Assembly (NCBI GenBank): GCA_041228345.1
Contig: CP166131.1
Location: 1,357,001 to 1,421,000 of the forward strand
Direction of reading: 5' to 3'
Source: Alphaproteobacteria bacterium LSUCC0396
GTDB taxonomy: Bacteria > Pseudomonadota > Alphaproteobacteria > Puniceispirillales > Puniceispirillaceae
DNA: 64,000 nucleotides
The first letter of the stretch is position 1. Each line of letters opens with the position of its first letter. Made by a program: the position numbers and the translations under genes. Of this stretch, positions 8,104 through 23,692 are shown in pieces. The notes under the pieces are model-generated. The model was not told the origin of the DNA and searched no databases. It saw only the letters and a list, made by a program, of their open reading frames with translations.

Positions 8104-8135
8104 GCTTTGGCACAGCTTTAGGAGCCATCGTAATC

Positions 8136-21351: not shown

Positions 21352-22632
21352 ATGGCACAGCAACTAGAAAAAACCAGCGACGCTACCGCCCTGATCGCCG
21401 CAATGGTCACCCGTGCGCGCGCCGCCCAATCGGTAATTGGCAAAAGTGATTTTACTACCAGATGCGCGGTATTGCAGGCCGCCGCCACGCTGATTCGCGC
21501 CCAAAAAACATCCATCCTTGAGGTTAATAAAAAAGATGTAGCGGCCGCCAAGGCCAGCGGCATCAGCGGTGCCTTTGTTGACCGTTTAACGCTTGATGAT
21601 AGCGGTGTCGAGGCGATGGCAAACGGGCTTGAGGCAATGACGCGGCTGCATGATCCGATTGGCCATGAGCTGGCACGCTGGCAACAGCCAAGCGGGCTGG
21701 ACATCACGCGCATATCAACACCGCTTGGGGTGATCGGTATCATTTACGAATCGCGGCCAAACGTTACGGTTGATGCCGCCGGATTATGCATTATTGCCGG
21801 CAATGCGGCGATTCTGCGCGGGGGCAGCGACAGCCAGCTGACCGCAAGCCTGCTTGCTAGCATCATGGCCGAGGGTCTGGACATGGTTGGCCTGCCGCGT
21901 GATGCCGTCCAGATGGTGCCAACGACCGACCGGCAGGCGGTTGGTGCTATGCTCGGTGCGGTTGGCGGCATTGATGTGGTGATCCCGCGTGGCGGACGCT
22001 CGCTTGTTGAGCGCGTTCAGACCGAGGCACGCGTGCCAGTATTTGCCCATTTGGAAGGCGTCTGCCATGTCTATGTCCATTGCGATGCCGATCCGGAAAA
22101 GGCGCGGCGCATCATGCTAAATGCAAAGATGCGGCGAACCGGTATTTGCGGGGCAGCCGAAACCCTGCTGATCGACAAGGCGGTTGCAGCCACGCTTTTG
22201 GCTGATATTACCGTCGATTTGTTGGCGGCTGGCTGCGCGCTTCGCGGCGATGCTGCGGCCTGTGCGCTGGTTCCAGCAATGACGCCAGCAACCGAAACCG
22301 ATTTCTATACTGAATATCTGGATGCAATCCTGTCGGTTGCCGTGGTTGATGATATTGACGGGGCCATTGCCCATATCGGCAAATATGGATCGGCCCATAC
22401 CGATGCGATTATTACCCAGTCAGCAGCAGCGGCAGAGCAATTCTTTGCCGAGGTCGACAGCGCCATTGTCATGCAGAACGCATCAACCCAATTTGCCGAT
22501 GGCGGCGAATTTGGCATGGGGGCTGAAATCGGCATCGCCACGGGACGGCTGCACGCACGCGGACCCGTTGGGGCGGCGCAATTAACAAGTTTCAAATATG
22601 TTGTTCGCGGCGATGGCCAGACACGCAGCTAG
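21352..22632 (+). CDS. proA: Gamma-glutamyl phosphate reductase
   Basis: Second proline enzyme: NADPH-dependent reduction of gamma-glutamyl phosphate to glutamate semialdehyde. The 426-residue protein is an aldehyde-dehydrogenase-fold member with PLGVIGIIYESRPNVTVDAA, the nucleotide region GGSDSQLTASLL, IDVVIPRGGRSLVE, and the catalytic cysteine C266 in RRTGICGAAET. GFGAEIGISTGRLHARGP of the family is present in slightly changed form (GMGAEIGIATGRLHARGP). Its last codons overlap the start of nadD. Confidence 0.97.
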   Translation: MAQQLEKTSDATALIAAMVTRARAAQSVIGKSDFTTRCAVLQAAATLIRAQKTSILEVNKKDVAAAKASGISGAFVDRLTLDDSGVEAMANGLEAMTRLHDPIGHELARWQQPSGLDITRISTPLGVIGIIYESRPNVTVDAAGLCIIAGNAAILRGGSDSQLTASLLASIMAEGLDMVGLPRDAVQMVPTTDRQAVGAMLGAVGGIDVVIPRGGRSLVERVQTEARVPVFAHLEGVCHVYVHCDADPEKARRIMLNAKMRRTGICGAAETLLIDKAVAATLLADITVDLLAAGCALRGDAAACALVPAMTPATETDFYTEYLDAILSVAVVDDIDGAIAHIGKYGSAHTDAIITQSAAAAEQFFAEVDSAIVMQNASTQFADGGEFGMGAEIGIATGRLHARGPVGAAQLTSFKYVVRGDGQTRS

Positions 22633-23257
22633 TCATACCCACCAGATGCCGGCGCTGTTTCACAGCCGGTCACGCCTGAAAATTGGTCTTGTGGGCGGCT
22701 CGTTCAATCCGGCGCATGATGGTCATATCCATGTTGCGCTAGAGGCGCGGCGGGCCTTGAGGCTTGATCAGATATGGTGGCTGGTCAGCCCGCAGAATCC
22801 GCTGAAAAGTGCCGCCGGAATGGCATCACTTGCCACAAGATTGGCCTATGCCCGCGATATCGCTGGCGGCTATCCGTTTTTGCGCGTTCTTGCACCCGAG
22901 GCGGGCCTGCCTAAGAATTATACATATAATACGTTGATTTATTTGAAAAAAACCTTGCCACTTGCGCGTTTAGTCTGGATCATGGGCGCGGATAATCTGG
23001 ATCAATTTTCGCGCTGGCACCGGCATCAGGATTTGATTCGCCTGCTACCCATTGCCGTAATCGACCGTCCAAGCTATTCTCTTAAGGCTATAGCGTCTGG
23101 TCGGTGGTTGCTAGGGCGGCGTTATCAGGTTGGGGAAATGCGCCGCGCGATTACGACAAGGTCACTAAAACTACCGGGCTGGTGTTTTATAGCTGGAAAA
23201 CGTCATGCGGCTTCGGCCACGGAAATCCGGCAACAAGCGCAGCGCGCAACCGCCTAA
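22613..23257 (+). CDS. nadD: Nicotinate-nucleotide adenylyltransferase
   Basis: Adenylates nicotinate mononucleotide to deamido-NAD in NAD synthesis. The protein has about 214 residues. The nucleotidyltransferase motif GGSFNPAHDGHIHVAL contains the HxGH-type signature (here HDGH), WIMGADNL marks the substrate region, and SATEIRQQ is the C-terminal (S/T)xTxIR motif. ATG candidates are 22598, 22613 and 22646; all overlap or closely follow the proA end, and the first two precede sequence without family similarity. The order proBA-nadD-rsfS-rlmH is typical of Alphaproteobacteria. Confidence 0.93.
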   Translation: MARHAASHTHQMPALFHSRSRLKIGLVGGSFNPAHDGHIHVALEARRALRLDQIWWLVSPQNPLKSAAGMASLATRLAYARDIAGGYPFLRVLAPEAGLPKNYTYNTLIYLKKTLPLARLVWIMGADNLDQFSRWHRHQDLIRLLPIAVIDRPSYSLKAIASGRWLLGRRYQVGEMRRAITTRSLKLPGWCFIAGKRHAASATEIRQQAQRATA

Positions 23258-23300
23258 ATCCGCCCGAAGCCTGTAACAGAAGAGGCTTGAACATTTTGAC

Positions 23301-23305
23301 AGGAG
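23301..23305 (+). promoter_or_regulatory. Ribosome binding site that decides the rsfS start
   Basis: AGGAG here is 6 bases upstream of an ATT codon at 23312, and an in-frame TGA lies 8 bases before the AGGAG. No ATG, GTG or TTG with a ribosome binding site is available in frame, so this site argues for initiation at ATT. Confidence 0.6.
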
Positions 23306-23311
23306 ATACCC

Positions 23312-23692
23312 ATTTCTAAAGCGCAAACTGCCTTAAATGCAGACCAAATCCTAAGCTTGATTACCAGCTCTCTTGACGACGACAAAGCCGAAAATATCCT
23401 GACAATCCCATTACAAGGTAAATCCGCAATGGCCGATTACATGGTCGTTGCGTCAGGGGCTTCATCCCGGCAAGTTGCCGCCATGGCAGAACATCTCGAA
23501 TTTAAGCTAAAGCAACAGAAGGTCGATATCCTTGGCCTTGAAGGATTGCGGCAAGCCGATTGGGTGTTGCTGGATGCAAATGATGTGATTGTTCATATCT
23601 TCCGCCCGGAAGTGCGTGAGTTCTATGGGCTGGAGCGGATGTGGGTTGATGATACGCCAGCTGAAATTGTCAAAATTGGCAGCGACGCCTAG
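23312..23692 (+). CDS. rsfS: Ribosome silencing factor RsfS, probable ATT start
   Basis: RsfS (Iojap/DUF143) binds L14 on the 50S subunit and blocks subunit joining in poor growth conditions. The conserved core is SSLDDDKAENI, ADYMVVASGASSRQV and VLLDANDVIVHIFRPEVREFYGLERMW in consecutive parts. The first in-frame standard start, TTG at 23357, gives 111 residues, truncates the first helix and has no ribosome binding site. Reading from ATT at 23312 gives 126 residues starting with the family-like ISKAQTALNADQILSLI, preceded by AGGAG at the right spacing. ATT initiation is rare (known for infC), so a miscalled base is the alternative. Confidence 0.9.
   Translation: MSKAQTALNADQILSLITSSLDDDKAENILTIPLQGKSAMADYMVVASGASSRQVAAMAEHLEFKLKQQKVDILGLEGLRQADWVLLDANDVIVHIFRPEVREFYGLERMWVDDTPAEIVKIGSDA

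Follow-up and report, generated by a model that had tools for sequence, protein, structure and literature searches.

A predicted near-cognate start codon of rsfS in Puniceispirillales and its counterparts in other Alphaproteobacteria

Rare start codons and the RsfS protein

To our knowledge, very few bacterial genes keep a start codon that is rejected by initiation factor 3 (IF3), which in E. coli discriminates against AUU, AUC, AUA and CUG alike. The infC and pcnB genes of E. coli use AUU starts (PMC9410913), and sigR of Streptomyces possesses a conserved GTC start that is repressed by IF3 (PMC5472188). In Staphylococcus aureus, initiation profiling revealed an AUA start for ccpN and an AUU start for cvfC1, both with an extended Shine-Dalgarno (SD) sequence; the near-cognate start of cvfC1 is conserved among staphylococci, and the non-canonical starts of this species gave ~10% of the expression of an AUG reporter, ccpN reaching up to 30% if the medium was rich (PMC13009471). 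Furthermore, initiation complexes that form on non-canonical codons are reported to be lost faster under the influence of IF3 (PMC8266586).

RsfS is a ribosome-silencing factor; its orthologues bind the 50S subunit and block subunit joining, and E. coli RsfS and IF3 are described as joint anti-association factors against premature subunit joining (PMC13246957). The E. coli rsfS gene (ybeB) starts with TTG; its expression peaks in exponential phase and was not affected by polyamines, the UUG codon notwithstanding (PMC10917681). The papers listed in our literature search, outside which most subscription papers and all preprints lie, showed no report of a rare rsfS start beyond this UUG.

The rsfS gene of Alphaproteobacteria bacterium LSUCC0396, for which we propose an ATT start, resembles each of these systems in part. 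Like infC, it has a conserved near-cognate start behind a strong SD, and its product acts on subunit joining; unlike IF3, RsfS has the 50S subunit as its target and is no fidelity factor. With E. coli pcnB, a different gene, it shares an AUU start, which in pcnB limits expression (as cited in PMC9410913 and PMC13009471). The sigR gene is similar in its conserved rare start, its strong SD and the fact that annotators moved the start to a nearby canonical codon, but it differs in having GUC rather than AUU, in encoding a sigma factor and in that its repression by IF3 was proven experimentally (PMC5472188). The staphylococcal ccpN and cvfC1 also combine a near-cognate start with an extended SD (PMC13009471), although they are unrelated genes of another phylum. 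Finally, E. coli ybeB is an orthologue with a minor start codon as well (UUG; PMC10917681), but this codon counts as canonical.

The rsfS locus and its start codon in the order

The window, i.e. the whole stretch of 64,000 nucleotides that was analysed, comes from a genome consisting of a single contig of 2,592,803 bases, which we take to belong to the SAR116 group. Its gene order nadD-rsfS-rlmH is the typical neighbourhood of RsfS/Iojap/YbeB genes; in E. coli, cobC is located between nadD and rsfS. The features of the locus are the following (positions in the window):

22598..23257, + strand: nadD (nicotinate-nucleotide adenylyltransferase); profile matches NF000843 and TIGR00482, both slightly below the curated cut-offs
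23297..23299, + strand: in-frame TGA stop, four codons 5' of the ATT
23301..23305, + strand: Shine-Dalgarno AGGAG, six bases ahead of the ATT at 23312; aligned spacing 5
23312..23314, + strand: ATT, predicted start codon of rsfS; 60 ATT, 5 ATC and 5 ATA among the 70 loci of families f1-f3
23312..23692, + strand: rsfS coding sequence as predicted from the ATT, 126 codons and TAG (23690-23692)
23357..23359, + strand: TTG, first canonical start-like codon in the rsfS frame, read as an ordinary Leu codon
23763..24221, + strand: rlmH (23S rRNA methyltransferase), 3' neighbour of rsfS, used as control for start-codon usage

Note that the homology of nadD begins at about residue 21-31 of its longest ORF; the ATG at 22598 overlaps proA, and Met17 (ATG 22646) may be the likelier nadD start.

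The rsfS product matches the profile TIGR00090 (RsfS/Iojap/YbeB family) with 116 bits (cut-off 56.9) over positions 3-99 of 99. Its alignment with PDB chain 3ups_A (E value 3.9e-38) begins at query residue 3, and several other solved RsfS chains align from query residues 8-16. The ATT follows the nadD stop after a gap of 54 bases. Behind the TGA, the rsfS frame reads CAG (23300), GAG (23303), ATA (23306), CCC (23309) and ATT (23312-23314), and it contains no ATG, GTG or TTG ahead of the first RsfS helix. A sequence-only reading of this DNA had put the rsfS start at ATT 23312, and this placement is supported by the orthologues, by the constraint on the frame, by the spacing of the SD and by another genome of the same species. 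Its statements that AGGAG stands six bases ahead of the ATT and that no in-frame ATG, GTG or TTG occurs before TTG 23357, 3' of the start of the first helix, were confirmed. It had also taken ATA and ATT for the sole possible starts; both are indeed present, but an in-frame ATC at 23348, a further near-cognate codon between the TGA and TTG 23357, had been overlooked. ATA 23306 and ATC 23348 both lack an SD match at a distance that could be used, and none was found in the window for TTG 23357.

The rsfS gene was present in 88 of 101 and in 15 of 16 genomes searched, and 90 rsfS places of the order were read. For every locus, each ATG, GTG, TTG, CTG, ATT, ATC and ATA before the first helix was listed, and the codon with the best SD was taken; one locus at a contig end (L037) was excluded before the f1-f3 loci were counted. 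In these 70 loci the SD-linked start was ATT (60), ATC (5) or ATA (5) and never ATG, GTG or TTG; the constant T at the second codon position carries no evidential weight, because each of the seven codons considered is NTN. The 70 loci represent 67 distinct 90-base contexts, and the second genome of the species (L031) is identical to the window in its bases at the rsfS start. The distance from the start codon to the conserved Asp is 38 to 46 codons (exactly 41 in 51 of the 70), the aligned SD spacing is 5 or 6 in 64, and the SD has at least five matching bases in 56. An in-frame stop lies at most five codons upstream of the start in 36 of the 70 loci, and in 40 no canonical codon is present between the in-frame stop and the helix (41 if the look-back is restricted to 60 codons). 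The conservation of ATT is notable, because start codons very rarely evolve into AUU in general (1 of 61,358 ancestral AUG starts; PMC5622118).

An ATG at the place of the ATT in all close relatives, which the sequence-only reading had named as the finding that would speak against it, was seen in none of the 70 f1-f3 loci; the more distant family f4 of the same order (L040, L053, L056, L058, L059, L061-L064, L070, L075, L077-L082, L085, L086) has ATG in all 19. This ATG is located 40 or 41 codons before the conserved Asp, and 16 of the 19 loci lack an SD, so that f4 represents a natural swap of a strong SD with a weak codon for a weak SD with a strong codon at nearly the same position. A quick RsfS tree, in which 42 of 82 inner branches are open, requires a minimum of 8 start-codon changes, one of them being the switch between ATH (ATT/ATC/ATA) and ATG in f4. 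The draft genome of one relative (G057; 80% complete, 5% contamination listed) contains two different rsfS copies (L046 and L088), of which L046 is on a long branch; this is probably due to contamination.

The infC gene served as a yardstick. It was found in 60 of 61 genomes, and its start was ATA behind an SD in all 50 loci read, including that of the window's own genome (L344) and those of six f4 genomes. The lineage therefore has the classical rare start of the IF3 type, and the start of rsfS is built like that of infC. The parallel between the two genes, proposed earlier for rsfS, gains weight as far as this anatomy is concerned, because infC of the same genome starts with an ATA that follows AGGAG and is directly preceded by an in-frame TAA; control of rsfS by IF3 would be the functional side of this parallel. 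The rare start of rsfS is not obligatory, since f4 uses ATG for rsfS while all 6 f4 genomes read keep ATA for infC.

Chance was assessed by comparison of reading frames and genes. In the 90 loci of the order, ATT, ATC or ATA preceded at a suitable distance by a strong SD occurred 59 times in the rsfS frame versus 1 and 4 times in the other frames; the corresponding numbers for ATG, GTG and TTG in the rsfS frame were 0, 0 and 1. The rlmH gene is a control for codon identity and not for SD linkage. If no SD was required, ATG, GTG or TTG was located exactly at the aligned first residue of rlmH in 128 of 140 loci (CTG in 6, other codons in 6), and a canonical codon was present within -6 to +4 codons of this residue in 138, while for f1-f3 rsfS a canonical codon was found at the assigned start in 0 of 70 and within -6 to +4 codons in 25 of 70. 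With an SD required, 70 of the same 140 rlmH loci had no SD-linked codon and 25 lacked the motif, while the codon was canonical in 35, CTG in 4, ATT in 3 and ATC in 3. In frames of at least 100 codons, the 64-kb window contains one other SD-linked ATH codon, an ATC at 8133 in a 423-codon frame with a canonical start codon directly after it, which is probably there by chance.

Coding constraint was estimated with 14 loci of the genus as the synonymous share of single-base codon differences. This share was 0.46 in the segment from ATT to TTG (neutral expectation 0.23), 0.84 in the next 14 codons, which belong to the undisputed RsfS domain, and 0.09 in the 13 codons upstream of the ATT (0.20 expected). 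Coding constraint thus acts on the codons after the ATT and not on those before it. Two further ideas were dropped. Five folds of the RNA around the rsfS start showed nothing notable (z from -0.91 to 1.42), which leaves a sequestered SD or other RNA structure without a signal, and read-through from nadD into rsfS is contradicted by the nearby in-frame stops of the 36 loci mentioned above.

Possible role of the AUU start and competing explanations

Comparison establishes the position, conservation, SD and coding frame of the proposed start, and on these grounds rsfS is predicted to begin at ATT 23312. It very probably belongs, judged by its sequence, to the genes with a conserved IF3-discriminated start (e.g., infC, pcnB, sigR). 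The conservation of an inefficient start suggests a deliberate brake on the amount of RsfS. In our main reading, to which we assign a probability of roughly 0.55, the AUU start is a selected non-AUG codon that holds RsfS low, its level rising if there is little IF3 for the 30S subunits present. The strong, well-spaced SD would recruit the 30S subunit to the rsfS mRNA, and at the poor AUU codon initiation would be slow and could be rejected by IF3, provided that IF3 discriminates in this lineage as it does in E. coli. Selection would keep the start non-AUG, and RsfS, which binds 50S and blocks joining, would therefore stay at a low level that increases upon IF3 scarcity, following the logic of infC. 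The concomitant rise of IF3 and RsfS in an E. coli delta-rimM strain, where the two do not change inversely, counts against inverse control by IF3, although rsfS of E. coli starts with UUG (PMC13246957). The exponential-phase peak of E. coli rsfS and its indifference to polyamines (PMC10917681) also speak against the main reading.

The same conservation in f1-f3 would fit a start codon that is real and conserved and simply keeps RsfS low, as an excess would stop translation, with no regulation by IF3. Such a passive brake has a precedent in E. coli pcnB, for which a limiting AUU is cited by both PMC9410913 and PMC13009471, and agrees with the low output of the S. aureus non-canonical starts (~10% of AUG, ccpN up to 30%; PMC13009471). 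Nevertheless, a weak SD could set a low level equally well, yet the SD of rsfS is tightly spaced and has at least five matches in 56 of the 70 loci; moreover, the UUG of E. coli demonstrates that a milder solution exists. We regard this explanation as possible but tentative. It is also conceivable, though rather improbable in our opinion, that RsfS represses its own synthesis: capping of 50S subunits would slow joining and hit the slow 30S complexes on non-AUG codons first, so that the start codon would sense joinable 50S. The anti-association activity of RsfS and IF3 (PMC13246957) and the kinetic checkpoint that IF3 imposes ahead of 70S formation (PMC8266586) would allow for this, and by analogy the architecture parallels that of autoregulated infC.

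The two remaining explanations deny the ATT itself. Translation could begin at TTG 23357 or another downstream codon, the upstream part being untranslated. TTG 23357 is the first canonical codon, and its column contains TTG in 24 and any of TTG, ATG and GTG in 32 of the 70 f1-f3 loci; however, the other 38 have no canonical codon there, an SD is absent, and coding constraint is evident between the ATT and the TTG. A start at this TTG would also cut the first helix region through which the solved RsfS chains align, and it would begin ~8 residues inside the start of E. coli RsfS (in an ungapped alignment, the Asp of ADYM is preceded by 26 residues counted from the TTG and by 34 in E. coli). We therefore consider it very unlikely. 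A sequencing or assembly error at 23314 replacing an original ATG is practically negligible as an explanation, since ATT, ATC or ATA is also present in L031, which is from the same species, and in the remaining loci of f1-f3.

rsfS starts beyond the order

At class level, rsfS was found in 273 of 289 genomes; 110 of the listed places, from 81 families, were read (the 30 best-scoring ones and 80 chosen to spread across families). If an SD with at least five matching bases was required, these 110 loci had ATA (17), ATC (9), ATT (6), CTG (13), GTG (4), ATG (3) or TTG (2), and 56 gave no call by SD; ATA/ATT/ATC or CTG was thus present in 45 of the 54 loci assignable by SD. Counted per family (n = 81), ATH was found in 28, CTG in 10, a canonical codon in 7 and a mixture in 1, with no call in 35. 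In the off-frame background, for which the count was slightly different, ATH occurred 31 times in frame versus 5 and 0 times out of frame, and CTG 12 versus 3 and 1 times.

Among named genomes (the best 80 of at least 586), the start was ATA in 16, ATT in 6, ATC in 6, CTG in 12, TTG in 5 and ATG in 1, with 34 giving no call by SD; examples are Magnetospirillum and Terasakiella (ATA), Azospirillum (ATC), Roseibium and Kaistia (CTG). Note that the sets are not additive, as 8 of these 80 loci have an exact match of 240 bases in other sets (L233/L156, L239/L125, L247/L014, L261/L132, L274/L140, L290/L172, L292/L090, L298/L031; the pair L240/L037 is void, both loci being cut off). Outside the class, the 27 best-scoring loci of the phylum all had a canonical codon, and a near-cognate start was detected in none of them if the SD had to comprise at least five bases; one locus (L316) has an ATC with a 4-base SD. 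A search of E. coli genomes by DNA similarity gave no match.

A wider proposal, which is speculative and which we hold to be doubtful, is that rsfS represents, in a large part of the Alphaproteobacteria, a second autoregulated gene of the infC type, its AUU, AUC, AUA or CUG start reading the balance of IF3 and joinable 50S. If this is true, two anti-association factors, one per subunit, would be homeostatically linked via start-codon discrimination. As a deeply conserved case, rsfS would extend the group of genes with a dose that the initiation machinery may read to an anti-association factor of the 50S side.

A rare start would also explain the inconsistent annotation of rsfS starts. Three annotated rsfS records of Rhizobiaceae share an in-frame CTG with an AAAGG-type SD; their annotations begin at ATG codons, which in two records precede this CTG by 26 and 10 codons and in the third follow it by 9 codons. 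In a Rhodobacterales record, the annotated rsfS start is a GTG located 26 codons 3' of an in-frame CTG. The annotated starts of these PLSDB records (L339-L342) thus disagree, although in each the in-frame CTG is behind a purine-rich SD; their rsfS N-termini are probably misannotated.
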